Assembly: GCF_002056795.1 (NCBI RefSeq)
Contig: NZ_CP020104.1
Coordinates: forward strand, 2,119,001 to 2,183,000
DNA length: 64,000 bases
Direction of reading: 5' to 3'
DNA from: Spirosoma aerolatum
GTDB taxonomy: Bacteria; Bacteroidota; Bacteroidia; Cytophagales; Spirosomataceae
Shown here: positions 20,601-44,001 of the stretch, piece after piece
How positions within the stretch are numbered: position 1 is the first letter of the stretch
Layout of the letters: every line of letters begins with the position of its first letter
Notes under the pieces: generated by a model
The model's database searches: none
What the model was told of the DNA's origin: nothing
Seen by the model: only the letters and a program-made list of their open reading frames with translations
Translations under genes and position numbers: made by a program

Positions 20601-21115
20601 TTATCAACCTGATTGGATTCCTGTCTAAACTGGGAGGTTCAGGTAGGTTCCGTGTGCCCACTACTCAGTTTGTCCGGCGATGGAGTATGGTTTCGGCCAA
20701 TAAAGAACTGGCTCGCAAGCTGGCTACCGAGGGAACGGCTTATGCCGCAAAAGATGCTGGGAAACTACTGGCCATGCCCATTTACAGCACCGTATCAGGA
20801 GCGCTACCCATCAATGAATTGCCGATTGTGGAAGTGGGGCCAGGTAAACGATACAGTTTCGTTCGGTTCGATCTGGAAGTGGTTAGCAAAGGCAACGTCG
20901 ATCTTGGTTTTACATCAACGATTGGTGTAACGGGATGGGTTGGCCCGAAAGCCCTGAAAATGACCGCTCAAGGTACGGTCATCGATCTGCCTCAGGGTAT
21001 TCAGACCATTACGTTAGCCATCGACCGTACGCAGTTTACGGCTGCACAATTGGGTATTCAATTGCAGGAGGCTCCACAATCACCCGCACAAGTCCGGCTC
21101 GTTATGGGGCGATAG
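17618..21115 (+). CDS. PVC-type membrane-bound dehydrogenase / HEAT-repeat / cytochrome c protein
   Basis: 1165 residues with an N-terminal signal or anchor (LLVPLLVLTTALVN). Domains in order: a sorbosone-dehydrogenase-like beta-propeller (about 45-390; FKLADGFEVTLFAAEPLVAK, GPDGAIYVADWYNP), HEAT-like helical repeats (about 400-800), a mono-haem cytochrome c with Cys885-Gln-Asn-Cys888-His889 and distal GPDLSSLG, then a C-terminal beta domain. This is the CxxCH protein architecture typical of Planctomycetes and Verrucomicrobia, also found in Bacteroidota. Probably oxidises a sugar or alcohol in the periplasm and passes electrons to its haem (inference from family). Last gene of the run from 15110. 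Confidence 0.92.
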   Translation: MRPRNRFIHLFPLLRKSLLVPLLVLTTALVNQDKAPDVPDPDVQKELESFKLADGFEVTLFAAEPLVAKPIQMNWDAQGRLWVVSSTAYPHLKTGEQANDKIFVLEDTNGDGKADKSTIFAEGLLTPTGILPGDGGVYVANSTEILHFSDTDGDGKADKKRRILSGFGTADTHHLIHTFRWGPEGSLYFNQSIYIYSHVETPSGIKRLEGGGVWRLRPEHLDLDIYAKGLVNPWGLQFTRWGTTFMTDGAGFEGINYAFPGATFLTAPGAERILRGLNPGQPKHSGLDVISGRHLPDDWQGTLITNDFRANRINRFKLEEQGSGFASKQLADLLWTDHVAFRPVDISVGPDGAIYVADWYNPIIQHGEVDFHDPRRDQQHGRIWRIVARNRPLVKRPELEKATVAELLDALRQPEDWTRLQAKQVLKRHGAKDVIPVLEQWITKLDPKAADYEHLLLEALWTYQTLDTVNEPLLLKLLNASDHNARAAALRAFQLWHGKIKDEPALLAKAVQDAHPRVRLEAVVALRNLQSAEAARAALMALDLPMDEFLDFALWQTVRELEPQWANRLKAQPTFLGDARKTVFALKSVSNSEAIAQLTQLYRQGQVPDEYQKDVLASIAKWGKPDDLNTLFDMAVQGNAQRDKQTVARLTTLADAARQRKVKPTTDLGRIAGFISNDDEEVATAAIRLIGLWQMDELSNRLVSIVPKGTKSIQKAALGALATIGSDQSKKMLIGLSGPGNTPVLRLLATAQLVSVDAPEAARIGTGLLRTIPPETDAADLFLAFFATKAGLQALADALTAQKIPESFAKSGRQLMARNLPFNRQRSDEVNRLQKALEASGGTLPVERMPQQLSNPEITALAQTVSQSADPALGEQVFRKSELLCQNCHAIGGAGGRIGPDLSSLGTSSPVETIIRSVLYPSLSIKEGYELQRIVKEDGSEMMAYLVSNGLSEVVVRDVGGQDFAIPKSQISTIEKTPGTLMPSGLTAGLDKQEFINLIGFLSKLGGSGRFRVPTTQFVRRWSMVSANKELARKLATEGTAYAAKDAGKLLAMPIYSTVSGALPINELPIVEVGPGKRYSFVRFDLEVVSKGNVDLGFTSTIGVTGWVGPKALKMTAQGTVIDLPQGIQTITLAIDRTQFTAAQLGIQLQEAPQSPAQVRLVMGR

Positions 21116-21131
21116 CCTGTCATATAAATGT

Positions 21132-21176
21132 CTGGTCAACAGAAAGCCCGGCTTTTACAGGCTTTCTGTTGACCAG
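21132..21176. terminator. Bidirectional terminator hairpin
   Basis: A perfect 17-bp inverted repeat (21132-21148 with 21160-21176) around an 11-base loop lies exactly between the convergent genes ending at 21115 (+) and 21177 (-). No long T-tract, but position and strength support a shared terminator. Confidence 0.8.
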
Positions 21177-22148
21177 CTATTCGTTTATGGCCGTAGTAAC
21201 CTGCGAATCTATCGACGATTTTCTGACCCCTTTTGCCTTTAGCATCTGACCGATACCGTTTGCTATATCAATAGAGGCTTCAATCTCCGCTTTGCGAATG
21301 GCTACACTTTCGATATTGAAGCCAAAGGGGATGGCGCGTTCCATACAGAACGTGGTGAGTGCAGAAGCAATATCGAGGCATATTCTTACCGATTTTTCGA
21401 GAATATCGTCCGACGTTTTCAGATCTTCCTTCAGTTCATCTGGTACATGAATGCCCAGCCATTCCATAAACTGGAGAGTTTTGGCCGACCCGCAGGCGGT
21501 AATCGTAAAAATGATCGTCGGAGGTTTTATGTTTTGTCGGTTACAACTAAGCGCCAGATCTTCGATAACCTGCCTCGCATACTCGAGATTGAAAATGCAT
21601 TGTGAGATAAAGTAAGACACCCCGCAGTTCATCTTGTCCAGCATTCGAACATCTTCATCGTTCAGCACATTATGCCGTTCCGGGATGGTTACAGCACCGA
21701 TTACAGAAGTGTCCTGATACTTGCTCCAGATCGTGTAGGCTTCCTGCAGGCTCGTTTTTACGGGGAAATCTGGTGCCGGTACGCCGACAAAAACTGGATA
21801 GAAATTGTGTGTATGTAGCCCTTCCAGCCATTCGGACAGCTCTGAGGCCGAAAATTTTCCCGCAGGGCGGTAGATTATTTTCGGGACGGGTAAAGAATCC
21901 AAATACGTAGACGCAAACGCAAACGGATCAAGCGCATTTATAAACGGAAACGGCCTTTCTTCTTTTGTTCGGGCCGATTCATCCTGAACGTCATATACGA
22001 CCAGCGCATCAATGTCTAGGGTTGCCAGTCGCTCCATTGTTTTTTGAGCAATCTCGGCAACGCGTTCGGGAAGCGTACCGACTTTGGGTGGCGTGATACC
22101 ATATAATAACACGCCTGATTCTGCAGATTTGATTTTTTCTAGAAACAT
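21177..22148 (-). CDS. Methylenetetrahydrofolate reductase-like protein
   Basis: 323 residues. The fold pattern follows the MTHFR TIM barrel: ITPPKVGTLPERVAEIAQ at the N-terminus, ALVVYDVQDES, VFVGVPAP, and NCGVSYFISQCIFNLEYARQ, which matches the MTHFR ITQ..FD segment. It is clearly diverged from canonical MetF: the usual EFFPP start is absent (GVLLYGITPPK instead) and no methionine-synthesis genes are near. It resembles orphan MTHFR-family proteins of other bacteria, whose flavin and folate use is uncertain. The product is probably cytoplasmic; the substrate is not certain. Confidence 0.8.
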   Translation of the reverse strand: MFLEKIKSAESGVLLYGITPPKVGTLPERVAEIAQKTMERLATLDIDALVVYDVQDESARTKEERPFPFINALDPFAFASTYLDSLPVPKIIYRPAGKFSASELSEWLEGLHTHNFYPVFVGVPAPDFPVKTSLQEAYTIWSKYQDTSVIGAVTIPERHNVLNDEDVRMLDKMNCGVSYFISQCIFNLEYARQVIEDLALSCNRQNIKPPTIIFTITACGSAKTLQFMEWLGIHVPDELKEDLKTSDDILEKSVRICLDIASALTTFCMERAIPFGFNIESVAIRKAEIEASIDIANGIGQMLKAKGVRKSSIDSQVTTAINE

Positions 22149-22729
22149 GATGGCACTTGAACTATGTATCCAGGCGGCTTTCCACTAACGTGAGGTCACT
22201 GATGTTTGAACAGACGAACCCGTTCTGGATAGCGCGTACGGCATTTGTATGAGTGATCATACACCTGCGCAAAATTCTACACATCAGCAAAGATGGTGTC
22301 TTGATATCCATTGGGCAAATAGGAGGTCATAAATTTCAACAGAAGATTCAGTCGTTTGCCAGCAATAGTGATTGATGTTTATGGCATCCATTGATCATCG
22401 CTTGGTGGCTTACATCTCGATTAGAATAGAGTTGCCAGATGGAAGGGCTTCAATTTGCTTGCCTTTCGGCCTGAAAAAACGTAGGGCGTTAGCGTATCAT
22501 TCCCGCGATTTTAATGATGGGGTTTTTCTCGGTTTTATACGCTAAAAGGAGTAGTTAATAAAATACACCTTTTGGGCGATTTTATGTGCATTGGTAGTGG
22601 TGAACTTTGTTGCGTAAATGGGATGAAAAAGTCGGTAGTTCATTTATTGTAAATGGGCTTGCTACGCCTGGAATTTCATTGACGTGCAGAAATTGATAGA
22701 AACAAACAATCTGTTAATATAAAATCGCC
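22149..22729. other. 580-base intergenic region with regulatory motif
   Basis: No gene is seen here. It separates divergent genes at 22148 and 22730, is AT-rich toward the right, and carries the dyad motif at 22548. Nothing else recognised. Confidence 0.6.
22548..22575 (+). promoter_or_regulatory. Shared dyad motif, copy A (upstream of Hedgehog-like gene run)
   Basis: GGAGTAG, nine bases, TACACCTTTTGG; the half-sites GGAGTA and TACACC form a GGWGTA-N10-TACWCC dyad. The same motif with identical spacing occurs at 27765-27792 (minus) and 36772-36799. It starts 182 and ends 155 bases before the start codon at 22730, which leads the four-gene run to 26717. Probably an operator or promoter of one regulator (inference). 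Confidence 0.7.
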
Positions 22730-23947
22730 ATGAACTCAATCAGACTTATAATACTCACTGCTTTTCTACTAAGCAGAGCATTATTTTTACAGGCGCAGAG
22801 TAACACTGCCAGCACAACGGTAGATACATCCGCCCTTAGAAAAAATATATTTAAGGATAACTCGAAAATATATAATTTGGTGAAGGATATGGTAAGCGGA
22901 AACCGAGATGTAGGTGCTCTGGTTAAGCCTTTTTCTGATACCTCTAATACATGGGGTGTTAATTTAACTAACAAGGCTATTGTCGTAGTTAAGCACGCCT
23001 TTAAATATGAGCTTAATGAAGAAAATTTTAAGGGGGAAAATACAGATAGAACTGAGATAATTGTCTTACATAAGGATAAAAGTTACATAGATAATACTAA
23101 TAATTGGAGTGATTATCTGTTAAATACTAAGGATGTTTTGCTGGTTTTTATAGGTGGTGTAAATGATTTACAAAATAGTACTATTGAAATAATAAAGAAG
23201 AAATCATTTTTCAGTACCAGCCTTGCCGATTTAATAACATTATCCCAGGCTGTTTTAAGTCCTTCGCTTGCAATGGATGCGTCGTCGGCATCTACCAAAC
23301 TTCCAGTAACGTTTGTTTTGTTAAATCCTGAGAAGCTGAACTCGCCCTGTAACATCAATATTACGTATGACGAGAAGAAAGAGCCACTAAAAGTGGACAT
23401 TCACGAGAGAAACTTTTTTGCTTTCCATGTAGGCGTTTCCGGGCAGCAGTTAAATAAAAATCAGGTGAAATTGCAAAATCAGCAACTGACTGTAGCACTT
23501 GATAGCACTCAGAAAAAAGAGTGGACCAGCAATCTGGTTGTTATGCTTACATTTTACCCATTTGGTGGTAGGGATATTGATCGATTTGAGCCCGTGTATA
23601 AACAGAACTTGAAAGGTAAAACAGCCGGATATGTTTTGTATAAATACACGGCTGAGCGAATCGGTATTTTCGGTGGTGCCAAATTGTCAATAGATCCTAT
23701 TCAGAATTTGTACCTGGGTGCCAGTTACGCCTTCTCGAAAAATTTTAATTTTAATTTTGGCTGGACTTGGGCTAATACATTAACCCCGTCGGTCACAAGT
23801 GTAGGCAATATTAATTCAATAAGCGATGCTATTAAATATGCCGATCGAAAATATGAGCGACAAACATTTATCGGCGTTTCGTTTTCTCCTGGTGTCATTA
23901 CTGATATTCTTGGTTTGAAAAAAGAAAAAGAAAGTACTAAAAAGTAG
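22730..23947 (+). CDS. Unknown secreted protein, AT-rich, possible outer-membrane beta-barrel end
   Basis: 405 residues with a signal peptide (ends RALFLQAQ). No family recognised. The mature protein has a mixed N-terminal part with many Asn, Lys and Asp, then from about 300 an alternating pattern (IGIFGGAKLSIDPIQNLYLG, ASYAFSKNFNFNFGWTW) typical of outer-membrane strands. Base composition is clearly more AT-rich than the genes to its left. First gene of a run of four on the same strand (next gap 112 bases) and preceded by motif A. It could be the outer-membrane partner of the Hedgehog-like protein (inference). Confidence 0.7.
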   Translation: MNSIRLIILTAFLLSRALFLQAQSNTASTTVDTSALRKNIFKDNSKIYNLVKDMVSGNRDVGALVKPFSDTSNTWGVNLTNKAIVVVKHAFKYELNEENFKGENTDRTEIIVLHKDKSYIDNTNNWSDYLLNTKDVLLVFIGGVNDLQNSTIEIIKKKSFFSTSLADLITLSQAVLSPSLAMDASSASTKLPVTFVLLNPEKLNSPCNINITYDEKKEPLKVDIHERNFFAFHVGVSGQQLNKNQVKLQNQQLTVALDSTQKKEWTSNLVVMLTFYPFGGRDIDRFEPVYKQNLKGKTAGYVLYKYTAERIGIFGGAKLSIDPIQNLYLGASYAFSKNFNFNFGWTWANTLTPSVTSVGNINSISDAIKYADRKYERQTFIGVSFSPGVITDILGLKKEKESTKK

Positions 23948-24059
23948 TTGCTTTTTTCTGAAGGTATGATAGGTGATATCGTAATTAAACTATATCATTC
24001 CAGCGTTAACGGTTTTTGTGAACGGACAGTACCATAGTCTGTAAATAAACCTCTTTTTT

Positions 24060-25013
24060 ATGTTGTTTTTTGTTGCTTTACTTGCCTTTGCCGGGTCAAT
24101 TGGTGGATTAATTGGCTACCTGGTTTTCGTTAAAGGGTTGCGTCTTCCGCCGGACGCCAATTCGGGTGGAGCGAGTTTTAGTGTTGATGCACCCAGCAGT
24201 ATATGGGAGCGCCTGTATGCATTCATACGCAATCACTGGGAATTATTTGCTTATCTGCTCCTGGGTATTTCGGGAGCACTTCTTGTACCGCTCATCAATA
24301 TTTGGGTGGGAGGGGGCCTGAAGGGGATTGAGGAATTGGCTTCACAGCTTTTACCGACCGATAAAGCAGGTACTGCGAACGAGTTGACTACCTGGCAAAA
24401 ACTCATTGTTTTCGACTATGGACTTGTGTTTGGCTATGCCGCTAACCGACTCTTTGGGGGGCTAACGAATGCTTTACTGGCCCGGATAGGAAATACATCG
24501 CAAACACCTGATTCCCCAGGCGCACCAGCCGTAAGGGCCGACTTCGCATTGGAATCTACAAACCTGACGCTTGGGCAGAAAGTGCCCGATCGGGCCGAAA
24601 AAGACTCACTGGCCTCTGGTCCCTTCAACAAAGCAATCCTGCGGGGAACACCCGAGTTTGCTACGTTGGTCGAGAATAAGAATGAGAAGGTTGTGTTCAA
24701 AAACGAGGAAGGTGATGGTTCAGACCGAATGATGACCCCTGTTCTCAAAACGCACGTTGATCGGCTGGCCGATTTAGTACGATCGGAATGGGGAGCTGGT
24801 GTGAGCCTTCGTGTTACGGAAGCCTGGGACGACACGGGCGAACATTCCAGTAGCCACAGCCTCCATTATGAAGGGCGGGCTGTAGACCTTACCACTAGTG
24901 ATTTAGATAAATCAAAATTGGGTCGATTGGGTCGGTTGGCGGTGGACGCTGGCTTTAACTGGGTTTATTACGAAAATCTACTCCATATCCATGCTTCCGT
25001 AACTAAAGCATAG
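24060..25013 (+). CDS. Membrane-anchored Hedgehog N-terminal signalling-domain-like protein
   Basis: 317 residues. N-terminal helices at about 2-24 and 62-86 and a weaker one near 122-140 anchor it. From about 165 to the end it follows the whole animal Hedgehog signalling (HhN) domain: [14 protein letters not shown], then [52 protein letters not shown] and HIHASV. Zinc ligands of Sonic hedgehog map to His269, Asp276 and His311; the putative catalytic Glu maps to Glu305 and a nearby His to His262. Calcium ligands map to Glu216, Glu217, Asp222, Glu254 and Asp257; the sixth is Thr259, a change. No C-terminal Hint autoprocessing domain. The fold is shared with LAS/VanY-type D,D-peptidases, so cleavage of cell-wall peptides is one possible role; substrate unknown. 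Confidence 0.9.
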
Positions 25014-25058
25014 AACAGTAAAAAGACCATTTATTTTCTAACGTATTCTGCTAAAACG

Positions 25059-26390
25059 ATGATCCTAAATGCCCCTCAGGTAGATCCGCAGCCTCGTAGC
25101 GTACTGGTCGAGCTTAAAGCTCCCCAGACGCTTGGATTTGGCATGGCCAGCGAAAATTCGACAACTATATTGAGCGATTTAGGGATTAGGCCTGATCCTA
25201 CGTTTGCTCCCGTACCTGTTAAGCCTACTACTGAACAGCGTCTGGAAATGCTTGTTCAGAATGAAGATAATCAGCACCTGATCGTTCGAACCGATTACCT
25301 GAATGCCGAGCAGCAGGCAATAGCGCTGAGTCATCCCGATGTGGTTGCCATATGGTCCGATGCCGTGGTTGAGCCGTTTGCCTGTCCCATACCGCCCTGC
25401 GATTGCTCGGCCAGTGTTGCCAAAGGATCGTTGAGCGATGTAGCCGATTTTCTGGGTGTCAGTACCTTATGGGCTAAAGGATTCCGTGGGGCCAATATGG
25501 TCGTTGGCGTTGTTGATGGAGGAATTACAGCCAAAGGCCGAACGACCGTGACAGTCGAAAACCCAGCCAACCTTATCGACAACGTAATTGGAGGATGGAC
25601 TCCCGATTGGGGCACCACTGGCAAAGGTTGGAATTTTCATGGCAATATGTGTGCAACTGACGTACTTGGAATGGCACCCGACTGTCGTCTGTATGACCTG
25701 CGGATAGCCAGTCCCACTGTTCCCGGAATGTTGTCCAATGCGATCAGTGCTTACCGATGGGCCATAAATCAGCATATGGCTACGGGTACCCCCCATGTGC
25801 TGACCAATAGTTGGGGAATGTATCAGCCGGGCTGGGCTCCTGATTATGTCAATGACCCTGCCCATCCTTTTTCGCGTATTGTTGTAGAAGCCATTAATGA
25901 GGGAATCATTGTGCTGTTTGCGGCTGGAAACTGCGGCAGTACCTGTCCTGACAACCGATGTGGAGCCAGCACGGGGCCTGGTGCCAGCATTTGGGGGGCT
26001 AATGGCCATCCAAGAGTGATGACGGTTGGGGCCGTCAATAAAAACGGACAGTTTGTGGGCTATAGTAGCCAGGGTCCGGCATCTCTTGATCCGCACAAGC
26101 CTGACTTTTGCAGTGTTACGCATTTTAAAGGCTATTTTACCTCTGATAGTGGTACATCAGCAGCTACACCAATTGCAGCGGGTGTTGCAGCCCTGTTGAA
26201 GCAGGCCTTTCCGACATTGACACACGATGGTATAAAACAGGCACTCATCACAACGGCACACGATATTGGGCCGGCTGGCTGGGATCAGCATTCGGGGGCT
26301 GGTATCATATCGGCTATTGACGCATATACTTCGCTCACTGCTTCTCCCGTTCTTGCAATGGCTGATGTAGCAATGGTGAACGCTTTCTAG
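25059..26390 (+). CDS. Subtilisin-like (S8) serine peptidase without signal peptide
   Basis: 443 residues. The triad is intact: Asp153 in VVGVVDGGI, His194 in WNFHGNMCA, Ser367 in GTSAATPIAAGVAALL, with oxyanion Asn in FAAGNCG. About 120 residues precede the catalytic domain and look like a propeptide-type or interaction domain. No signal peptide is visible, unlike most Bacteroidota subtilases, and no C-terminal sorting domain. It starts 45 bases after the Hedgehog-like gene, so the two are probably cotranscribed. Cysteine-rich stretch CPIPPCDC precedes the domain. Likely a cytoplasmic or non-classically exported maturation or effector protease (inference). Confidence 0.9.
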   Translation: MILNAPQVDPQPRSVLVELKAPQTLGFGMASENSTTILSDLGIRPDPTFAPVPVKPTTEQRLEMLVQNEDNQHLIVRTDYLNAEQQAIALSHPDVVAIWSDAVVEPFACPIPPCDCSASVAKGSLSDVADFLGVSTLWAKGFRGANMVVGVVDGGITAKGRTTVTVENPANLIDNVIGGWTPDWGTTGKGWNFHGNMCATDVLGMAPDCRLYDLRIASPTVPGMLSNAISAYRWAINQHMATGTPHVLTNSWGMYQPGWAPDYVNDPAHPFSRIVVEAINEGIIVLFAAGNCGSTCPDNRCGASTGPGASIWGANGHPRVMTVGAVNKNGQFVGYSSQGPASLDPHKPDFCSVTHFKGYFTSDSGTSAATPIAAGVAALLKQAFPTLTHDGIKQALITTAHDIGPAGWDQHSGAGIISAIDAYTSLTASPVLAMADVAMVNAF

Positions 26391-26444
26391 GGCGCTTTGC
26401 TCGTCGGGTTATCCGCTTCTGGATACATATAGACATAGCAGCCA

Positions 26445-26717
26445 ATGATACTTACCCTAACGAAAAAATCGGCTACGACTGGCGATATCCAGGTAGCGCA
26501 TAAAGAATTCGATTTAACCTCCGAAGAAGTAAGGAAAGTAATGGGCCAGGTAAGAGAGACGAATGCGGGCGATTTCAGTCCGTTTGCCACAATTTACATA
26601 GACCCCGATCAGTATATACTTGAAGCGGATGGGGAGTCAGTAGAATTCAAGCCCCAGCTCTGGCCTGTGTCTCAGAGTGAGATTATACATGAGCTAATGC
26701 AGAATTTGCGAACCTGA
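26445..26717 (+). CDS. Small unknown protein, last gene of Hedgehog-like run
   Basis: 90 residues, acidic, soluble, no signal peptide; a mix of strands and a helix (FDLTSEEVRKVMGQVRET). No family recognised. It starts 54 bases after the subtilase and is followed by a hairpin, which fits the end of an operon. A role as inhibitor or chaperone of the subtilase is possible, as small genes next to peptidases often are, but nothing in the sequence shows it. Confidence 0.6.
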   Translation: MILTLTKKSATTGDIQVAHKEFDLTSEEVRKVMGQVRETNAGDFSPFATIYIDPDQYILEADGESVEFKPQLWPVSQSEIIHELMQNLRT

Positions 26718-26753
26718 AAGTTGTATTTCGGTCTGGTACGATTATAAGTTTTT

Positions 26754-26796
26754 ATGAGCCTTACTCTGATAGAGACTATGTCAGTGTAAGGCTCAT
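26754..26796. terminator. Hairpin between convergent genes
   Basis: Arms 26754-26769 and 26781-26796 pair over 16 bases with one mismatch, loop of 11. It lies between the + gene ending 26717 and the - gene ending 26960. No proper T-tract after either side, so termination is likely but not certain. Confidence 0.6.
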
Positions 26797-26959
26797 AAGC
26801 TTGAAAGGTTCGCTGCTTTCCAGCAGGTTCAGCACAGGTTTTAGGATACCGTCTCTTTGTGGATGGTAACAGGTAATCAAATCCTAAAACGATGACAGTT
26901 CGCTTGGTTGCAACTAGGTGAGCAGCTTGATCAGAAGGCGGCAGTTTAGATCTGGACAA

Positions 26960-27616
26960 TTATTTCGGTGCTCTATTCAGCAGGTTATTGTCTACAGCGT
27001 ATTTAACCAGCGCAGCTGTGTTTGTGCAGTTAAGTTTACTGAGCATATTGGAACGGTGCGTTTTAACGGTCAACGGGCTCAGAAATAGCTTTTTAGCGAT
27101 CTGTTCATTGGTTAGCCCGTCCACAATCAGCTTCAGTACATCTCGCTCCCGTTGAGTAAGTGTCTCGACGTAGGAAAGCGTTGGGGGCTTACGATTGGCC
27201 AGTCCATGAAACAGAACAGGCGTTAGCTCAGGGCTTACATAAATTTCGCCATGTCCAACAGCTTCCAGAGCTTTTACCAACTCGGCCTTGCCCACATTTT
27301 TAATCAGGTAACCATCGGCACCGGCACGAAGCATGGCTCTTACGGTGCCATAATCATTGTCCATACTAACGGCCAGTATCCGTACGCCAGGAAACTGTTT
27401 TTTGATCCGTTTGGTGGTCTCAATGCCATTCAGGGCGGGCATTTGTACATCCAGCAGGACGCAATCAACAGGGGTTTGGGCTAGTATAACCAGCACTTCT
27501 TCGCCAGTACCTGCTTCTCCAATAACTTCACAGCCATCAATGCGGTCAAGCAGGCTATGCAAACCGTCTAAAAATAGTTGGTGATCGTCGGCAATGAGTA
27601 TACGTGTGGGCAGCAT
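26960..27616 (-). CDS. NarL/LuxR-family DNA-binding response regulator
   Basis: 218 residues: receiver domain with acidic pair Asp10-Asp11 and phospho-acceptor Asp56 (VLLDVQMPALNG), then a LuxR-type helix-turn-helix (about 150-205; LTQRERDVLKLIVDGLTNEQ and SPLTVKTHRSNML). No kinase gene adjoins it, but a matching HisKA_3 kinase is encoded at 34741-36657. Its own upstream region carries motif copy C (148 bases before the start), and the kinase and the Hedgehog-like run carry the same motif, so it is the best candidate to bind it (inference). Confidence 0.95.
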   Translation of the reverse strand: MLPTRILIADDHQLFLDGLHSLLDRIDGCEVIGEAGTGEEVLVILAQTPVDCVLLDVQMPALNGIETTKRIKKQFPGVRILAVSMDNDYGTVRAMLRAGADGYLIKNVGKAELVKALEAVGHGEIYVSPELTPVLFHGLANRKPPTLSYVETLTQRERDVLKLIVDGLTNEQIAKKLFLSPLTVKTHRSNMLSKLNCTNTAALVKYAVDNNLLNRAPK

Positions 27617-28017
27617 AAGTCACCAGAAGGAATTAAAATTAAAAATACGAAAAAGCTTCAGATAATTTCGCAAAGAGCGTCTGCCAATCACCATAAGCCT
27701 GTTCTCTTTCTGAAAAGGTTTAGGTACTGACAAATTTCCATCGCCATTTTTCACAAAACATCATCCGAAAGGTGTAATTCGTAAACTACTCCCAAATGAG
27801 TAACTGGTACAAAACGCCCATGAAGCAGTTGCTCATAACATTTGTCCAAAAGATAAGGATCATCCTGTTTCGCGAACGACTAAAAACAGGTATTTTACCG
27901 GAAAAGTAAAAATATATCTATGTTGTTCATTTACAGGTTCATTCAAGTGTCTGCATAGGGGTACTTTCTACTAATGACTTTATACCACAACCTATAACCT
28001 GCTCTCGCCCAAATCCT
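27617..28017. other. 400-base divergent promoter region
   Basis: Lies between the response-regulator gene (-) and amidase gene (+). It holds motif copy C at 27765-27792 on the minus strand; the amidase side shows no copy of the motif. No gene seen. Confidence 0.6.
27765..27792 (-). promoter_or_regulatory. Shared dyad motif, copy C (upstream of response regulator)
   Basis: Read on the minus strand: GGAGTAG, nine bases, TACACCTTTCGG, followed by ATGATGTTTT. Spacing is identical to copies A and B. It lies 148 bases upstream of the start of the response-regulator gene and in its direction, suggesting autoregulation (inference). Confidence 0.7.
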
Positions 28018-29484
28018 ATGAGTCAGTACATTTATCAGTCGGCTACAGAATTAGCAGCTATGATTCGTGAAGGAAAAGCGTCAAGTGTAGCCATCGTACA
28101 AGCGCATTTAGATCAGATCAAAAAACATAACCATACTATAAATGCACTCATTTCTATTTTTGAAGAAGAAGCTCTACAGGAAGCCTTTCAGTGTGATCTG
28201 GAAGCCCAAGAAGGTCGATTCAGAGGGCCGCTGCATGGCGTTCCTGTCACTATAAAAGAGATGTTTTGGATTAAGGGCAAAAGCAGCAATCTGAACTCCA
28301 GAATACTTAAGTTTTTTGTTGCTCCGGCCGATGCCGTGATTGTTGACCGAATAAAAAAGAGTGGTGCTATTATTCTTGGGCAAACCAATGTGCCGAGGTA
28401 TATACTCGACTATCAGGTAAATGGTGATATCTATCCGGAAGGTAAGAATCCGTACAATACTGAGTATACGCCCGGCGGAAGTACAGGTGGAGGGGCTGCG
28501 GCTTTAGCGTCGGGCTTTACTCCTTTGGAATTAGGAGGTGACTTTGGTGGTTCAGCGCGTGTGCCTTCTAATTTCTGCGGATTGTATGGTTTAAAACCTA
28601 CCGACAAAACCGTTCCATTATTTGGGAATTGGCCACTGCCCAAAAACGCGAAGTCGTTTATTATTCATATGTTTCAGGGGAGCCCACTAGCCCGAACCGT
28701 TGATGATCTTGAGTTGCTCTGGAAAGTAATTGTTGGCCCTCACGAGAGCGATCGTACTATTCCAGATATAAGCTGGAAACCATCAGTCAAACAATCACTT
28801 CGTGAATACCGGATTGCCTGGGCCGACGGATGGCCTGGGCATGAAGCCAGTGCGCAAATACAAAAGGCGGTGCAATCCGTGGCCGATACCTTAGTGAGCC
28901 AGGGAGCGAAGGTTGAAAAGAAGATTCCCGATGAAACGCTGTATAATGAATCGCTTTCAACCTTCGCGGGCTTATTTCCTTATGTAATTGCCCAGTATAT
29001 GCCCTGGATTCTCAGGCAGTTATTTAAATGGTCATTGCTCCTGGGCATTCTGAAAGGGGTAAAAAAAGAGTCGCCTGAGTTGGTAAAGGCAATGAAAAAA
29101 GCCTTCAGGATGAAAGCGCGCCATTATGGAGAGATGCTGTTTCAAAAAAGCCAGATCACAGAACGGTGGGAACACTTTTTCGAAGCATACGATTTCCTGA
29201 TTTGTCCCGTTGCCTATGGGCCTGCTTATAAGCGCTGTAAGCTGGGAAGCCGAATTACGTATGATGGCAAAGAAATGATTTATAACAATTATGTTTGGCC
29301 TTATGTGGCTGGTTTTAGTGCTACAGGTCATCCCTGCCTGACAATTCCCTTAGGATTGGGAAAAGAGGGGTTGCCAATTGGGGTGCAGGTTGTTGGTAAA
29401 TACTGGAGTGAACCTGAGTTGATTCAGTTTGGCAAACTAATCAGCCCGCTTACGAAAGGTTTTGTTAAGCCCGAAGGCTATTAA
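28018..29484 (+). CDS. Amidase-signature family amidohydrolase (FAAH-like)
   Basis: 488 residues, no signal peptide. The Ser-cisSer-Lys triad is intact: Lys80 in VPVTIKEMF, Ser155 in GGSTGGGAAALASG and nucleophile Ser179 in GGDFGGSARVPS. The spacings (75 and 24) equal those of fatty-acid amide hydrolase, and the GGDFGGS form is FAAH-like rather than the GSDTGGS of GatA. No gatB or gatC nearby, which also speaks against tRNA amidotransferase. The substrate is probably an acyl amide or other small amide (inference). Single gene, divergent from the response regulator, ended by the hairpin at 29555. Confidence 0.9.
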   Translation: MSQYIYQSATELAAMIREGKASSVAIVQAHLDQIKKHNHTINALISIFEEEALQEAFQCDLEAQEGRFRGPLHGVPVTIKEMFWIKGKSSNLNSRILKFFVAPADAVIVDRIKKSGAIILGQTNVPRYILDYQVNGDIYPEGKNPYNTEYTPGGSTGGGAAALASGFTPLELGGDFGGSARVPSNFCGLYGLKPTDKTVPLFGNWPLPKNAKSFIIHMFQGSPLARTVDDLELLWKVIVGPHESDRTIPDISWKPSVKQSLREYRIAWADGWPGHEASAQIQKAVQSVADTLVSQGAKVEKKIPDETLYNESLSTFAGLFPYVIAQYMPWILRQLFKWSLLLGILKGVKKESPELVKAMKKAFRMKARHYGEMLFQKSQITERWEHFFEAYDFLICPVAYGPAYKRCKLGSRITYDGKEMIYNNYVWPYVAGFSATGHPCLTIPLGLGKEGLPIGVQVVGKYWSEPELIQFGKLISPLTKGFVKPEGY

Positions 29485-29677: not shown

Positions 29678-32600
29678 TTATACCGTAAGTACATGTTTGG
29701 AAGCCAGCGAACTCATGGCCATAATTGTCCACTGCGGATTAAGATTCATACTGGTTGGAAATACAGACGCATCGGCCACAAAAACATTGGAGAAACCCTC
29801 CACACGGAACGTTTCATCGACAACACGTTTGGCCCGAATAGCCGCCGAAGCAGTTTGGCCAGCCATCAGATTTCCGCCCTGTGGGTGTGCCGTATTCAGC
29901 ATTATTTTGCCGGCCGACATTAAGTCGTATCCCTGAATAAGGCGGCTAAACGTGGCTACGTTCTCACCATTAACATCGAACATAAGCCCAGGCTGGAGCG
30001 GAACAACAACCTGTTTGGCGCCAGCACCCTGGCCAATTTTGAGTAAAGTTGTCAAAGCGTACCGAATATTATCCTGATCCTTACAGCCCAATTCCCAGGA
30101 AAATCCTTTACCGTTGAGTAAATCGGCTTTACTTAGAATCTTCCCGTTCGATTCGGACCCTACCAGAACCCCAAAATTTAACAGATACGTATAGTCATCC
30201 ATTAAAGCCTGATAGCGACCAAAATAGAACGGAAGCGATAGACCGAAGGTACTGGGTGGGTTAAAGTAGGTTTCAAAAACCATCTGATCGTTGGCACTGA
30301 TGGCTCCCATCGTAATCTGTTCGCCATCAAAAGCCTGGATGGGTTCGTCGAATTTAAAAGCTACGGGCAACGCAAAATTGCAGCTCATTCCCAGCCCTAC
30401 CGAACCTTTTACTTCGCTCTGTGTCAGAAAATGGCTGCTGGCAATTGTTCCGGCTGCTACCACAACCGCTTTGTTTACCATTACCTCGTGCAAGCGGCCG
30501 GATGCCGTTTGTAGCACAACACTGGTAGCCCGACCCTGTTTACTCATAAACCGAACGGCGGTTGTATTGGAGGCTACCGATACTCCTCTGGCTTCGGCCC
30601 AGGGAATATACGTTTCCAGCATCGAGCGCTTTCGTAGGTATTTGTTTCCCAGATTCCATAGTCCGTCACCCGCAACATTAGCCCCGTTTATGTTGGCTAG
30701 GGTAGGGTATTGTAACTGCTCATTCGGGGGGGCTGTTCTATTATAGGCACTAACTCCTTTTCTGAATCGGTGAGCTACTTTTGTATTGACGCCATTGCTT
30801 CCGATCCTGGTAATGCCTAGTTCTCGGGCAATTTGCTGATATTCATGATCCAGGCTGTCAAGGGGTATTCCGTATTCCTTTTTCCAAACTGTTTTTACCC
30901 GCGCTGGTAATTTATAACAAACGGCATTATTAATAACGCTTCCCCCGCCTACACACTCGGCCTGCAAAATAGACATGTCGGCACGCTTCGTCTGTTGAAG
31001 GCCTCCTTCTTTATACACCTTAGCCATCATCTCGATTTCCCGGTCGTTAAAATCCTGAAGGGGCGAATAACGATTCCCCCGGTCAATCATCAGAATGCGT
31101 GCAGTTGGATTTGCCCGGATGAGCCGATATGCCATTACTGAACCTGCTGGTCCCGATCCGATGATAATATAATCTACCTCCGTAGGCAGAGGGTCTTCAT
31201 GAACGGGCGTCGACAAGCGGGCCGCTGGTTTTGGAGGAATTGGCTTCTTCGAAAGAGGCTGATAGTTAAGCGGGTCGTTGGGATGTTTGGGTAAGGGCGC
31301 AATCCGCGCAAATGGTGGTGGGCCTGTTGGTACTTCCGGTTGCAGCCGATCTCTGGCGCCCGGTGCTATGTAACCGATCCGATTATGCTTTTTCAGATTG
31401 GAATAGGCCGCAAACATTACCATCGAATGAGCGGCTATGCTAAGTTGCGTGGTCAGGTCAGCATAAGCAGGGATTAGTGAACGCTGCCGTTCGGAAGCTG
31501 GTCGAATGAGGTAATGGCGTAGGTAATAAAGTTGTTCATCGTTCGACATCGTTGAGAAAGGGGGCCTGAACGCCCACGTAACACTCAGTACATTTTCGAT
31601 GAGCCAGAATGGGAAATTGAGTAATCCCCGCTTACGCCCCCGAATTGTACCGGCATACCGATCAATTGCCTGCAAGATGTCACCACTGTCTTCTGGCCCT
31701 TCAGGAAAAAGTGCCTGATGAATGGCCAGTACATTCTGAGCACTAGAAGGCCGAAACGAAGTAATGGTGTATTCTATTTCATAAAAAAGCTTTCGAAAGG
31801 CGAGTAGCATAATAAACAGAAACAGAACCAGGATCAGGCTAAACGTAAACCAGGATTGTATATCAATGATCTGGCCCGTTTCTGTTTCGATGGCCACATT
31901 GGCCACCGTGAGCCAGATCAACGCGCCTGCAATCCTGATAAAATATCCCCTTAACAACGTCCCAATCAGATAGTAGCTAAGACGCTCGTTTTTTACCATT
32001 AGAAAACATAAGACAATAATGGCCGTATACATCGTAACGGCATTTCCCAGGGTCGGGTCGGGGCCATGAAAAATGGCTCTCAGAGGTGTGTTTGGGTATC
32101 CATGAAAGCGTAGATAAAATGCTACTCCGATCATCAGCAAGGCCAGGATGCCAATGCCCCAGAATGCCCAGTTCAATAATGTAGCTGGTATTGAGAGCAG
32201 CCGTTGCGCTTTCGTATTGGCTCTGATCTTATCAAACGTCTGTTTATTGATTGCCTTACCCGAGCTGATTAATATCCAGATAAAAGCGATAACCATTACT
32301 AAATCCGTAATGCCCGATAGTAGCAGAAAATCATGATCAGGCCCCGTAGAGGTACCGAGCACGTAGAACAGGAACGAGCAGAATACCGACACAGCATGGC
32401 CAATACAAAGTACGAGTGTAGTATAAAAACGCAGTCTCTTGTTGTAAGCGCCTATGAACGCCATTCGGATCATCAATGAGATCTTCGCCATCGTACAGAG
32501 GGCCAGAAACGGATTTCGATAGGTGGTAGCAAAAAGGTCGCCAATTCCCGGAAATTTAAATAACGAAGGGGCAAATGCCCCGACGAGTAACAAGCCCAGA

Positions 32601-33172
32601 TAGGCTAAATACCCAATACCTAATAAGCGCAGAATCCAGAAACCGGCATCTCTTTTGGGTTTGTCTACCCGCTCATAACTCCATTCTTCGGGCATTGTAG
32701 CTGGAGAGGGGGGCGTAACTGGATTGATTATCGACACGATAAGGCGTGCCAGCCACAGACAAACAGGCCCAATCAGAAAAGCGTCAATGGATATAGTAAT
32801 GAAAAATTGCAGCGGTAATAACTTAATGGTGCTGATTGGTGCTGCTGAAACAGTCAGCGGATTATTGATATTATGAACATTGGAGTATAAAGACAGCACA
32901 TATAAGGGCAAAAAAACGAGCAGGTATTGAATGATGGAACTGGCCTTACGCAGCATAAGTACCATTGGTGCCAAGATGCATGTACAGAGACCCACAATGA
33001 CACTCAGCAACCAGGGAGTCGGCGAGATTGGAAATCGGTTGGTGATCCAATAAAGCAACAGCGAGATCATTGCGGCTGTAACACTTATGATGATGATCAA
33101 TCTGGTAGGCCGGGAAACATAATCGAGCGGATCTGAGGCCGTATACCCCGTTGCGGTAAAAAGTGGTGCCAT
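29678..33172 (-). CDS. Giant membrane protein fused to GMC-type FAD oxidoreductase
   Basis: 1164 residues. About residues 1-500 hold at least ten hydrophobic helices. About 500-640 resemble the helical domain found before long-chain alcohol oxidase or gluconate-dehydrogenase-type GMC proteins (ALFPEGPEDSGDILQAIDRY, PFSTMSNDEQLYYLRHYLI). From about 665 a GMC oxidoreductase follows: FAD motif DYIIIGSGPAGSVMAYRL, ECVGGGSVINNA, then HPQGGNLMAG with the active-site His and MNLNPQWTIMA with the Asn. Normal GMC enzymes are 500-600 residues and soluble or secreted; this fusion is unusual. Likely oxidises a membrane-soluble alcohol or sterol-like lipid and may pass electrons within the membrane (inference). 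Third gene of a minus-strand run with the phosphoesterase and kinase. Confidence 0.9.
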   Translation of the reverse strand: MAPLFTATGYTASDPLDYVSRPTRLIIIISVTAAMISLLLYWITNRFPISPTPWLLSVIVGLCTCILAPMVLMLRKASSIIQYLLVFLPLYVLSLYSNVHNINNPLTVSAAPISTIKLLPLQFFITISIDAFLIGPVCLWLARLIVSIINPVTPPSPATMPEEWSYERVDKPKRDAGFWILRLLGIGYLAYLGLLLVGAFAPSLFKFPGIGDLFATTYRNPFLALCTMAKISLMIRMAFIGAYNKRLRFYTTLVLCIGHAVSVFCSFLFYVLGTSTGPDHDFLLLSGITDLVMVIAFIWILISSGKAINKQTFDKIRANTKAQRLLSIPATLLNWAFWGIGILALLMIGVAFYLRFHGYPNTPLRAIFHGPDPTLGNAVTMYTAIIVLCFLMVKNERLSYYLIGTLLRGYFIRIAGALIWLTVANVAIETETGQIIDIQSWFTFSLILVLFLFIMLLAFRKLFYEIEYTITSFRPSSAQNVLAIHQALFPEGPEDSGDILQAIDRYAGTIRGRKRGLLNFPFWLIENVLSVTWAFRPPFSTMSNDEQLYYLRHYLIRPASERQRSLIPAYADLTTQLSIAAHSMVMFAAYSNLKKHNRIGYIAPGARDRLQPEVPTGPPPFARIAPLPKHPNDPLNYQPLSKKPIPPKPAARLSTPVHEDPLPTEVDYIIIGSGPAGSVMAYRLIRANPTARILMIDRGNRYSPLQDFNDREIEMMAKVYKEGGLQQTKRADMSILQAECVGGGSVINNAVCYKLPARVKTVWKKEYGIPLDSLDHEYQQIARELGITRIGSNGVNTKVAHRFRKGVSAYNRTAPPNEQLQYPTLANINGANVAGDGLWNLGNKYLRKRSMLETYIPWAEARGVSVASNTTAVRFMSKQGRATSVVLQTASGRLHEVMVNKAVVVAAGTIASSHFLTQSEVKGSVGLGMSCNFALPVAFKFDEPIQAFDGEQITMGAISANDQMVFETYFNPPSTFGLSLPFYFGRYQALMDDYTYLLNFGVLVGSESNGKILSKADLLNGKGFSWELGCKDQDNIRYALTTLLKIGQGAGAKQVVVPLQPGLMFDVNGENVATFSRLIQGYDLMSAGKIMLNTAHPQGGNLMAGQTASAAIRAKRVVDETFRVEGFSNVFVADASVFPTSMNLNPQWTIMAMSSLASKHVLTV

Positions 33173-37342: not shown

Positions 37343-39562
37343 ATGCAGCTAGTTCCTAAAGTGATTCAGAAAGCCGTCCGGCAACGATTAATGGAGTCGA
37401 TTCCGGACCAACAGGAAACGCTAAAGAAAATTGAGGAAGGTAAGCCACTTGAGGCTGAGAAAGACGAAAACCGAAAATTGGCTTATATTCAGCGACAGGT
37501 TAAATGCAGTTTATCGGTTGCCCGTCGGATTGCAGATAGAGAAGATCCTGCCAATCTGCCGCTCAATGACGACCAGCGGAACAAAGCGGAGAGCTTGCAG
37601 GGAGATACTGCTGATTTTGTACCCATCTGTTTTCTGGATATAGGCCGGGCTGCGTCCCGTTCGGTAGCTATTGTTACGCTGCCCGACCGCTCGCCTAAAG
37701 GAACCGGCTTTATGGTTTCGCCAAGTCTTTTTCTCACCAATCAGCACGTTATACCCTCTTCGGCCGATGCCCGTAACCGGCTGATCGAGTTTACCTATGA
37801 ACTTGATCCCGATAAACAGACCACCCCCGTCACCCAGTTTCAGCTTGATCCCGATACGTTTTATCTCAATGATTCAATCGACGATCTGGACTATGCTCTC
37901 GTGGCAATAGGGCCGAAGCGTAATGGGCCTCTATCGGTTAGCGAGCTGGGCTTTTTGCCACTTGTCGATGCGAATGATAAATGGATTACGGCAGGATTTG
38001 TTAATATCATACAGCATCCTAACGGAGAATTTAAACAGTTGGTTGTTCGCGAAAACCGAATTACAACCCACAGCAACAATACGCTGATTTATGGTACAGA
38101 TACATTGCCCGGATCGTCAGGATCCCCCGTATTTAATGACGACTGGGAGGTGCTGGCTCTCCATCATTGGGGTGAACCGCACCGGGCTATCGCTGATTTA
38201 CGTTCGGATGGCCTGCCTATTCCGGGTTTGGGAAACGAAGGCATTCGGATAAGTGCAATTATTAAGGAACTGATTGATAAACTGCCAACTTTAACGAAAG
38301 CGCAACAGAATCTGCTTAGTGAGGCTCTCAACCCAGGGTTTCGCCATCCTAGTCTGTTAGGCGCTTCCGTTCGCCAGCCGGAGGCTACTCGTGCCATACT
38401 GCCTGATCCTCCGCCTGATCCTAAACCCCAACTCTCTAAAACCCCCCAAGCTATGTTGTACAATGCCAGTAATGGAACGGTTTCGTTTACAGTACCTATC
38501 ACTATTTCATTGAGTTTTGGTCAGGTAGAACAAACAGTACGAGCGGTATCGCCCGAAAAAAATGAACCTCAGGAGGTATCACCCGAAGACCCGGGTGCTG
38601 CTGAGGCTATTGTGTTTAAGCCTGCCCCTGACTATAGTAATCGAAAAGGATACGATCCCACCTTTTTGGGCATTGTCTTGCCTTTACCAGGCTTAACAGG
38701 TACACAACCAGATCTGGCTGCTATTAATAAGCAAGCCCTGCCCAACCGGCCTTTTGAGTTTACATACCAGAATTTTAGCCTGGTCATGAATAAGAAGCGT
38801 AGACTTCCGTTTTTTACAGCCGTTAATATCGATGGCGGATCCGTCGTGCAAATTAATCGCCAGACGGGGGCCATTACCCGAAACGAAAGTGAAGGGTTGG
38901 AAGAAGCCCGGGAAACCTGGTATGATGATCCCCGTATTGATCCGAAGGAAACGACTCAGGATACACTTTATCGAACGGCGGACTTTCGTATTTTCCAACG
39001 TGGGCATCTGGTTAAACGTACCGACCCCTCGTGGGGAGGAGCAGAACGGGCGTTCAAAGGCCAGTCCGACACATTTCATTTTACAAACTGTAGTCCGCAA
39101 CACGAAAAATTTAACCCTATCAATACGCGTTGGGCGGGTGTTGAAGATTGGATTACCCGAGTAAGCGATAATGAAAACATTCGGGTAACTGTGTTTAGTG
39201 GGCCTGTTTTTGGCGACAATGATCCGCTTTTCAGCAATTTACCCGTCCCTAAGCAGTTTTGGAAAGTGATTGTTTGGTCTGAGAATGGCAAAATTCGATC
39301 AACCAGTATTTTGGCCGATCAGGGCGATTTACTACAGGCGGCTCAATCGGGAAGGGAAGGTCTTGATGATCCGAATGCTGATTCCAGAAATAAGTTTCCT
39401 AAAACATATCATGTTTCGATCAAAACTATTGAAAAGCTAACGGGGCTGGATTTTGGAAATGATGTTCGACGGGGTGATTCGGCTCCACGCGGGGGGGAGT
39501 CATTGGAGTTTTCGGACGTCACTCAGTTACAGCCGATTGTTTTTCCTGATAAGGGGTATTAA
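37343..39562 (+). CDS. Trypsin-like protease / NUC-type DNA/RNA endonuclease fusion
   Basis: 739 residues, no signal peptide. Residues 1-90 are a small helical domain; 95-320 a trypsin-like peptidase with His135 (LTNQHVI), Asp183 (DLDYALV) and Ser259 (PGSSGSPVF); a proline-rich linker (about 345-430) follows; then a NUC/EndoG-type nuclease at about 440-720. The usual DRGH motif reads QRGH (Gln552-His555), with the general-base His kept, and NCSPQHEKFN gives the metal-binding Asn591. Both active sites look usable. Fusions of protease and nuclease without export signals are known from bacterial conflict and programmed-death systems; that role here is inference. The single gene starts 685 bases from the kinase gene. 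Confidence 0.9.
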   Translation: MQLVPKVIQKAVRQRLMESIPDQQETLKKIEEGKPLEAEKDENRKLAYIQRQVKCSLSVARRIADREDPANLPLNDDQRNKAESLQGDTADFVPICFLDIGRAASRSVAIVTLPDRSPKGTGFMVSPSLFLTNQHVIPSSADARNRLIEFTYELDPDKQTTPVTQFQLDPDTFYLNDSIDDLDYALVAIGPKRNGPLSVSELGFLPLVDANDKWITAGFVNIIQHPNGEFKQLVVRENRITTHSNNTLIYGTDTLPGSSGSPVFNDDWEVLALHHWGEPHRAIADLRSDGLPIPGLGNEGIRISAIIKELIDKLPTLTKAQQNLLSEALNPGFRHPSLLGASVRQPEATRAILPDPPPDPKPQLSKTPQAMLYNASNGTVSFTVPITISLSFGQVEQTVRAVSPEKNEPQEVSPEDPGAAEAIVFKPAPDYSNRKGYDPTFLGIVLPLPGLTGTQPDLAAINKQALPNRPFEFTYQNFSLVMNKKRRLPFFTAVNIDGGSVVQINRQTGAITRNESEGLEEARETWYDDPRIDPKETTQDTLYRTADFRIFQRGHLVKRTDPSWGGAERAFKGQSDTFHFTNCSPQHEKFNPINTRWAGVEDWITRVSDNENIRVTVFSGPVFGDNDPLFSNLPVPKQFWKVIVWSENGKIRSTSILADQGDLLQAAQSGREGLDDPNADSRNKFPKTYHVSIKTIEKLTGLDFGNDVRRGDSAPRGGESLEFSDVTQLQPIVFPDKGY

Positions 39563-42991: not shown

Positions 42992-43579
42992 TTAGTTTGT
43001 AATGAAGGCTATTTCCTCTTTGTTGAAAAAAGCCTTAACTAACTCATGATTGGCTTGTAGATGTTTAATTTGTTCACGAATCGCAATTGTTAGCTCATCT
43101 AAATTAGTGAACACCTGATTCTTTAACTGACCTTTCAGGTAGCTCCAGATCAGTTCTACTGGATTCAGCTCTGGGCTGTAAGCCGGTAAACGCTCTAAAT
43201 GAACTCGGTTTGGACGTGCTTTCAAAAAAGCTTTGACGGCCTCGCTGCGGTGGATGGCAGCCCCATCCCAGATCACCAGCATATTTCGTTTGCGATAACG
43301 CCCGCACAGCATAGTGAGGAACCAGACAATATCTTCACCCGTAAACGGCTGGTCTTGCCCCGCTACATAGATACGACCGTTAGGCGCAATAGCAGCGATC
43401 AAACTTAGATGAGCCCGTCCCGCTTGCTCAACTAATATCGGTGTTTGCCCCCGAGGGGCCCATGTGTTAGCCAGCATGGGTAACAAATAACAAGCCGATT
43501 CATCCACATATAAAATGACGCGCCCTTCAATTTGGGCTTTTTTTGAGTTCGGGTAAGCGTTCTTCTTTCCATTGGGCAA
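42992..43579 (-). CDS. IS630 transposase, DDE catalytic part (second frame)
   Basis: Catalytic triad seen: Asp in VILYVDESACY, Asp in MLVIWDGAAIHRS and Glu in SPELNPVELIWSYLK (DDE_3 type). The frame opens only with a TTG at 43579 and overlaps the upstream frame by 53 bases. It is +1 relative to it, and the junction is a run of seven T on the + strand (seven A in the mRNA, 43538-43544). With six A the two would be one protein. So it is made either by slippage on the A-run or is disabled by a one-base change. Confidence 0.88.
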   Translation of the reverse strand: MPNGKKNAYPNSKKAQIEGRVILYVDESACYLLPMLANTWAPRGQTPILVEQAGRAHLSLIAAIAPNGRIYVAGQDQPFTGEDIVWFLTMLCGRYRKRNMLVIWDGAAIHRSEAVKAFLKARPNRVHLERLPAYSPELNPVELIWSYLKGQLKNQVFTNLDELTIAIREQIKHLQANHELVKAFFNKEEIAFITN

Positions 43580-44000: not shown

Positions 44001-44001
44001 A

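Follow-up and report, generated by a model that had tools for sequence, protein, structure and literature searches.

A membrane-anchored bacterial protein with a Hedgehog N domain in Spirosoma aerolatum and the gene contexts of its relatives

The window, that is, the whole stretch of DNA that was analysed, comprises 64,000 nucleotides of the Spirosoma aerolatum contig NZ_CP020104.1. It contains an uninterrupted open reading frame from ATG to stop at positions 24060-25013 of the plus strand, and the encoded protein of 317 amino acids, referred to as BacHh, joins a membrane anchor to a Hedgehog N (HhN) domain. The features of the locus are as follows.

22730..23947, plus strand: upstream gene, 405 amino acids, no Pfam family above the cut-off; possible partner
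24060..25013, plus strand: BacHh gene, membrane anchor and Hedgehog N domain, 317 amino acids (open reading frame and Pfam)
24060..24554, plus strand: N-terminal module, residues 1-165 (predicted helices 2-26, 60-82, and 111-147; homology to a protein of genome G094)
24543..24998, plus strand: HhN domain (PF01085), residues 162-313 (Pfam and PDB sequence matches)
24705..24836, plus strand: calcium-site segment, residues 216-259 (alignment)
24843..24995, plus strand: zinc and catalytic residues His262, His269, Asp276, Glu305, His309, and His311, within residues 262-312 (alignment)
25059..26390, plus strand: subtilase (Peptidase_S8), 443 amino acids, 45 bp downstream of BacHh; possible partner
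37343..39562, plus strand: Trypsin_2 and Endonuclease_NS (NucA) protein, 739 amino acids (Pfam; co-linear with a protein of locus L006)

The PF01085 profile matched residues 162-313 of BacHh with a score of 171.4 bits (E 1.6e-50; profile positions 12-161 of 161), compared with a curated cut-off of 22.1 bits. The runner-up family, Peptidase_M15_3 (PF08291), reached 18.8 bits and stayed below its cut-off of 23.2 bits; an M15 family was not the best hit. In the PDB sequence search with BacHh, all 25 matches at E <= 1 were Hedgehogs, the best being 3d1m (E 7.8e-42), and the identity to the bovine Shh row (P0121) was 52.7% across 146 amino acids. The Hedgehog fold was likewise found for the HhN domain by computation. 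BacHh is certainly a true HhN homologue, by PF01085 membership and by fold. The preliminary description of this DNA, which had recognised a complete Hedgehog signalling-domain match far closer to Hedgehog than to VanY types, is confirmed, and identity as an ordinary VanY protein was dropped, since PF08291 was below its cut-off and comparisons with the M15 group gave only 12-20% identity. As had also been described, a Hint domain is absent from BacHh, with no PF01079 match and a C-terminus 4 residues after the PF01085 match. A lipid-bearing CGPGR N-terminus with a signal peptide was not found in BacHh, in which a membrane module of approximately 162 residues precedes HhN.

The alignment placed the zinc ligands of BacHh at His269, Asp276, and His311 (Shh His141, Asp148, and His183), all of which are present together with Glu305 (Shh Glu177), His262 (His135), and His309 (His181). 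Five of the six calcium ligands are kept by alignment (Glu216, Glu217, Asp222, Glu254, and Asp257), and the position of Shh Asp132 is occupied by Thr259, in agreement with the residues first read from the sequence. Conservation was surveyed in 27 rows taken as animal and in 138 bacterial rows, of which 120 were the best hits and 18 came from loci, with a few proteins present twice. The equivalents of the zinc ligands and of Glu177, His135, and His181 were invariant in 138 of the 138 bacterial rows, as is expected for a working enzyme. Those of Glu90, Glu91, Asp96, and Asp130 were also invariant in all 138, and the Glu127 equivalent was Glu in 133 and Asp in 5. The Asp132 equivalent was Asp in 24 of the 27 animal rows; since it was Asp in only 53 bacterial rows, with Asn in 66 and various letters in the remaining 19, this residue does not define the bacterial family. 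Residue 134 was Glu in 136 of the 138 bacterial rows, whereas it was His in 23 of the 27 animal rows, and this Glu could act as a substitute calcium ligand.

In Shh, a second, solvent-exposed calcium lies near Asp132, and its binding, which drags Glu127 and His135, was proposed as a catalytic off-switch (PMC4102407). By alignment, the inner calcium site of BacHh looks intact and the inhibitory outer site looks altered by Thr259; because the Asp132 equivalent is missing at this proposed inhibitory site, BacHh may be less calcium-inhibited than Shh. The accessible text of PMC6027127 states that all calcium residues are identical, a claim that the variation at Asp132, as judged from the aligned bacterial rows, refines.

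The structure model of the BacHh N-terminus contained long helices at residues 2-26, 60-82, and 111-147, with low confidence in that region, whereas plain hydropathy gave two membrane helices; a membrane-spanning N-terminus had been noted in the preliminary description. Residues 1-165 are conserved in P0002 (75%) and P0003 (58%), and a search with these residues alone returned solely P0001 and P0002. An anchor profile made from BacHh, P0002, and P0003 detected one further genome, G094, among the 222 family genomes (E 1.8e-19), and none beyond the window's own genome among 385 sampled phylum genomes. The G094 relative is a 644-amino-acid protein with Endonuclease I (PF04231, E 1.1e-33), the N-terminus of which is 34% identical to the anchor (E 1e-17). 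Against YLATT (PF20303; cut-off 26.7 bits), it scored 32.8 bits as a whole and 37.6 bits over its first 200 amino acids, the match being marginal in the six-frame search (26.3-26.9 bits), and residues 1-165 of BacHh scored 13.4 bits, below the cut-off. From this homology, with Endonuclease I attached in G094 and HhN here, the BacHh anchor is a divergent relative of a module bearing different effectors. Near the G094 YLATT-nuclease gene are a SMEK_N gene (NACHT match below the cut-off), a metallo-beta-lactamase-fold gene, and an M4 metalloprotease gene. The YLATT module presumably belongs to conflict systems; a literature search on YLATT found no publication. An M15-like character of the G094 C-terminus, seen by eye in the spacing of His/Asp/HxH, was rejected as unsupported by Pfam or PDB sequence searches. 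Separately, three proteins around the YLATT-nuclease gene (L040 1513-2226, 4547-5038, and 8832-9563) share a terminal YDHGTACCPIG, a pattern that was absent from the window and the other loci examined.

The side of the membrane on which HhN lies was also considered. An eye count of the loop charges and, in the G094 relative, a Cys-x3-Cys within the second loop lean towards a cytoplasmic HhN, which would make it an enzyme in waiting for a membrane breach. A periplasmic HhN was proposed for the rhizobial BacHh (Roelink 2018, PMC6027127). A firm placement on either side was dropped.

A search of 5.8 billion proteins, in which 8000 candidates were scored, gave at least 468 homologs at E <= 1e-3, and the best 120 of these were used for the homolog analyses. 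The closest among the homologs listed were P0002 (81%) and P0003 (67%), both homologous over the full length, and HhN domains up to 87% identical to that of BacHh occur in proteins having the same anchor. HhN was found in 1 of 36 genus genomes and 1 of 222 family genomes, the window's own genome both times, in 1 of 390 sampled order genomes, and above the cut-off in 1 of 395 sampled phylum genomes; one more phylum genome (G668, 21.1 bits) was below the cut-off and was left out of the count. In 84,980 species genomes, a pattern scan located 26 HhN loci, the hosts of which include Algibacter, Flavivirga, Lacinutrix, alphaproteobacteria, Paenibacillus, Polyangiaceae, Pseudonocardia, Sumerlaeota, Phycisphaerae, and Chloroflexota. 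An HhN open reading frame was obtained from 19 of them, and 18 scored > 60 bits and entered the alignment; the remaining 7 loci were probably lost to the preference for overlapping longer frames. HhN was present on one conjugative plasmid among 72,556 records, none was found in the viral contigs and annotated phages scanned, and a single-protein scan of genome contigs with BacHh found no relative. Such a rare and scattered distribution is typical of a mobile accessory gene.

By crude hydropathy, which probably overlooked some signal peptides, 16 of the 120 listed homologs have at least two transmembrane segments, 6 have a signal-like stretch (3 of these with a lipobox-like Cys), and 98 have neither a transmembrane pair nor a signal-like stretch, so that for the majority no route by which a wall enzyme would get to its substrate is apparent. 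P0110, P0111, and P0119 (also P0106) are bacterial HhN proteins of approximately 180 amino acids in which a signal-like stretch is accompanied by a lipobox-like Cys. These short proteins perhaps carry an N-terminal lipid tether, in parallel with the lipid-bearing N-terminus of animal Hedgehog.

A maximum likelihood tree was calculated from 93 HhN domains, thinned from 165, over 148 columns. Many of its forks are unresolved, the bootstrap was unsettled, and the Chloroflexota rows L025 and L026 were chosen as the root. The animal rows came from a Shh search with 120 listed rows, all taken as animal and several nameless; the 27 that had 138 or more aligned residues were kept and then thinned to 12 for the tree, among which P0141, P0146, and P0148 lack an organism name. 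The tree set contained no identified cnidarian, Hedgling, or Hedglet sequence. As a result, the 12 animal rows formed one clade (100/100), and BacHh, P0002, and P0003 formed a separate clade among the bacteria (100/100, branch 0.74), both within a crown of 81 rows (95/80) under the Chloroflexota root. A sister relationship of the window clade and the animals was not seen in the tree and was not rejected (AU p 0.197). The highest animal-bacterium identity was 62.6% over 139 amino acids, between the snail Hedgehog P0144 and P0020, compared with a best value of 54.8% for BacHh. From these clades and identities, the animal Hedgehogs seem to form a single lineage inside the bacterial diversity, and no special place of BacHh near them is apparent.

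Two origins offered in the preliminary description are therefore not upheld: the window protein has no privileged place as an ancestor, other bacterial HhN domains being closer to the animal rows, and the phylogeny, which puts it with P0002 and P0003 among bacteria, speaks against transfer from animals. A recent animal transfer, or animal contamination of the assembly, might account for an identity of up to 54.8% to animal Hedgehogs, but we consider it hardly credible and dropped it in view of the clade with 100/100 support, the HhN domains up to 87% identical in proteins with the same anchor, and an assembly that is a single 7.96 Mb contig with completeness 100 and contamination 0.35.

Domain fusions of the relatives point to the cell wall. 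A Pfam domain additional to PF01085/PF08291 is present in 14 of the 120 listed homologs, and 13 of the 14 are wall enzymes; the extra domains are VanY in 6, Amidase_3 in 5, and GH25, the L,D-transpeptidase catalytic domain, and WXG100 in 1 each. The WXG100 domain is fused to HhN in P0044, which suggests type VII secretion of that one HhN protein. A phage lysozyme gene immediately precedes HhN in Algibacter and Lacinutrix (Pfam scan), lysozyme homologs occupy the matching position at two Flavivirga loci, an Amidase_2 and M23 gene lies two genes from HhN in L006, and an M15_4 protein is encoded four genes upstream of HhN on a Pararhizobium plasmid. Very large proteins were also observed. In Pseudonocardia dioxanivorans, a 1722-amino-acid frame (L024 3282-8450) has an N-terminal HHH_3 and HhN at its extreme C-terminus. 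In L012 (2,487 amino acids), L011 (2,494 amino acids), and L009 (cut off), a giant protein starts 50-65 bases downstream of HhN, that of L012 having no Pfam match at E 0.01, and a 2,181-amino-acid relative lies just downstream in L005, a Phycisphaerae MAG.

One island combines HhN with proteases and nucleases. The L006/L044 record is named 'Bacterium M00.F.Ca.ET.205.01.1.1' and is one that we take to be rhizobial. On one side of its transmembrane HhN gene (TM-HhN) are genes for Matrixin, Trypsin_2+Endonuclease_NS+S8 (the trypsin-NucA protein, two genes from HhN), bDLD2+Trypsin_2, and an NPHP3_N-type NTPase (NACHT match below the cut-off), with an integrase and tRNA-Phe; the other flank carries DUF3616 and the Amidase_2+M23 gene. 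This set of genes agrees with 'System 3' as described by Kaur et al. 2020 (PMC7159879), for which a proteolytic cascade was proposed to deploy NucA. A trypsin-NucA relative was found in 1 of 26 HhN loci (L006 only, with flanks of up to 8 kb) and bDLD2 in 1 of 21 genomes or records of HhN loci other than the window; the link to System 3 thus rests on one island and on the like neighbours reported in Mesorhizobium and Bradyrhizobium, which were interpreted there as feeding (PMC8052667). By text search, 'Hedgehog' was absent from the main text of PMC7159879, from PMC8195603, and from PMC8213781; in the accessible sections of PMC12419801, toxin systems are named as the source of Hint and SuFu but not of HhN. 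A literature search for HhN in conflict systems or injection particles found none.

In a Paenibacillus genome (L016), Baseplate_J and Tail_P2_I genes lie upstream of HhN with two genes between (Pfam scan), and a second Paenibacillus (L023) has an equal gene order around HhN by homology. The Paenibacillus HhN proteins contain a GNSAVL motif in the N-terminus. Motifs of this type mark contractile-injection cargo.

The genes next to BacHh were then compared with other genomes. The N-terminus of the 405-amino-acid upstream protein resembles a signal peptide by eye, no match was found in the 35 other genus genomes, and the G+C content drops to 0.36 at 23-24 kb, over this gene. A conserved two-gene pair was rejected as the protein is dissimilar to the 262-amino-acid upstream protein of G094. 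Relatives of the downstream subtilase at 64-67% occur in 4 of the 35 other genus genomes, all four without HhN, so that its pairing with HhN may be chance. The genus relatives in L030, L031, and L032 are approximately 140 amino acids longer C-terminally, and the gene downstream of each is putatively ATP-grasp-like by eye.

The trypsin-NucA gene is separated from HhN by 12.3 kb and from the subtilase gene by 11 kb. Its product is co-linear with the L006 protein (27% over 647 columns, E 6e-43), and a tblastn search found no further copy in 400 kb sampled elsewhere (5% of the genome). Between it and HhN are response regulator, amidase, GMC oxidoreductase, phosphoesterase, and sensor-kinase genes; since these are unrelated and on both strands, the two genes are not in one operon, and membership of one system is possible but weakly indicated. 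Direct repeats in 21000-28500 were short and inexact only, with no clear island ends, and PADLOC and PHROGs gave no match. Elsewhere in the window, DDE_3 and HTH_33 (transposase-like) frames adjoin a short Endonuclease_NS (NucA) frame, matched from profile position 59 (42992-44655), and a 1164-amino-acid protein (29678-33172) has a GMC oxidoreductase C-terminal half and a long hydrophobic N-terminal half, with a weak SLAC1 match below the cut-off.

Judging by its residues and the company of its relatives, BacHh is likely to be a peptidase with a wall substrate, which supports the wall-peptidase reading of the preliminary description. Zinc would be bound by His269, Asp276, and His311, Glu305 would be the base, His262 and His309 would grip the substrate, and the centre would cut peptide bonds of peptidoglycan stems. 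The inner structural calcium would be retained and the outer inhibitory site weakened by Thr259. The anchor of about three helices would keep the enzyme at the inner membrane, from which proteolysis or membrane damage might release it into action as a lytic effector, alongside proteases and nucleases, in a conflict or self-lysis system. That BacHh is such a membrane-tethered zinc peptidase of peptidoglycan, acting as a lytic or conflict/self-lysis effector, we judge to be evenly balanced between right and wrong. The points counted for it are the HhN fold, the invariant active site, the wall-enzyme fusions and neighbours, the L006/L044 island, the Paenibacillus tail genes, the anchor in common with an Endonuclease_1 protein near SMEK_N (G094), the window trypsin-NucA gene, and the patchy gain. 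Counted against it are the early Shh assays, the lack of recorded BacHh activity, and the Shh/BacHh chimera (all described below), the unrelated genes between HhN and the trypsin-NucA gene, the narrow basis of the System 3 link, the sub-threshold or marginal YLATT scores, the negative PADLOC and PHROGs searches, and the 98 listed homologs with neither a transmembrane pair nor a signal-like stretch. Somewhat more doubtful is the wider proposal that bacterial HhN is a peptidoglycan-cutting effector of conflict or self-lysis systems (YLATT-type membrane effectors, NucA-trypsin-Death-like-domain islands, and phage-tail-like particles) and that animal Hedgehog descends from a bacterial conflict effector.

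Other readings share part of this evidence. The wall-enzyme fusions and the M15-type active site would also be compatible with a periplasm-facing housekeeping enzyme, the anchored HhN trimming or remodelling the cell's own peptidoglycan, as Roelink 2018 (PMC6027127) implies for the rhizobial form by putting HhN in the periplasm. We regard this as unlikely, since its presence in a single genome among 36 of the genus and among 222 of the family makes the protein dispensable for normal wall growth in that group, and the L006 HhN is adjoined by proteases and nucleases. Those same neighbours, together with the lysozymes, suit a feeding enzyme digesting detritus or prey cells with the subtilase and a nuclease, as Jagers and Roelink 2021 (PMC8052667) read the rhizobial cluster; but no signal peptide is recognisable by eye at the start of the HhN protein or of the subtilase, the HhN protein appears membrane-anchored, and the Death-like domain and NPHP3_N-type NTPase of the L006 island would be superfluous in a digestive set, which leaves feeding an improbable role.

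A peptidase-dead domain that binds wall fragments or a partner protein, comparable to the 'pseudo-active site' view of Shh, would accord with early Shh peptide assays, in which no activity was seen, later in vitro results having been interpreted as self-cleavage (PMC4102407). It is difficult to reconcile with catalytic residues that are all invariant throughout the 138 bacterial rows across deep divergence and with HhN fusions to other wall hydrolases, and we give it little credence. No record of enzyme activity of any BacHh was found in the accessible literature, and a Shh/BacHh chimera failed to substitute for Shh's own domain in matrix binding (PMC8052667).

It has long been asked from what source the Hedgehog signal arose and whether its zinc centre acts as an enzyme. 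Bacterial HhN proteins that keep all catalytic residues, some fused to wall hydrolases, offer a testable substrate, peptidoglycan, and the calcium-switch model finds a natural contrast in bacteria, where Asp132 at the inhibitory calcium has been lost. The relatives among wall-cutting and predicted defence genes hint at the source of the animal signal. If the conflict-effector reading were true, the signalling half of Hedgehog, besides its Hint half, would derive from bacterial weapons, and Hedgehog would join Hint, SuFu, Wnt, and Teneurin as animal signalling parts of bacterial-warfare descent.

Hedgehog-like bacterial proteins were, as the preliminary description had it, already known, and the membrane-anchored kind itself was described in 2018 (PMC6027127); what is new is the BacHh anchor and the contexts around the relatives. 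The Bradyrhizobium and Mesorhizobium BacHh proteins (PMC6027127, PMC8052667) are like the window protein, in the sections accessible, in a C-terminal HhN with zinc, catalytic, and most calcium residues, in an N-terminal membrane region, and in having no Hint, but the window protein differs in its YLATT-related anchor, in Thr at Asp132, and in mostly different neighbours. Multi-TM homologs such as P0008, with a Cys pair in the first loop and no YLATT match, are also unlike the window anchor. Compared with animal Shh, Ihh, and Dhh, the window protein is without the signal peptide and CGPGR and without Hint, and the bacterial rows favour Glu over His at position 134. From the M15, VanX, VanY, LdcB, and MepA peptidases, BacHh is separated by the low identity and the sub-threshold PF08291 score given above, and the double calcium centre has been described as unique to ShhN among these peptidases (PMC4102407). 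With the three-TM YLATT proteins, BacHh has in common the module of the G094 protein, which passes the YLATT cut-off, whereas BacHh falls below it and its effector is HhN in place of endonuclease I. In System 3 as accessible in PMC7159879, the Death-like domain, trypsin, and NTPase form one protein, whereas they are encoded by two adjacent genes in L006. The L006 island has a TM-HhN gene; the window has the trypsin-NucA gene and a subtilase adjoining HhN, but this core gene is 12.3 kb away with unrelated genes between.
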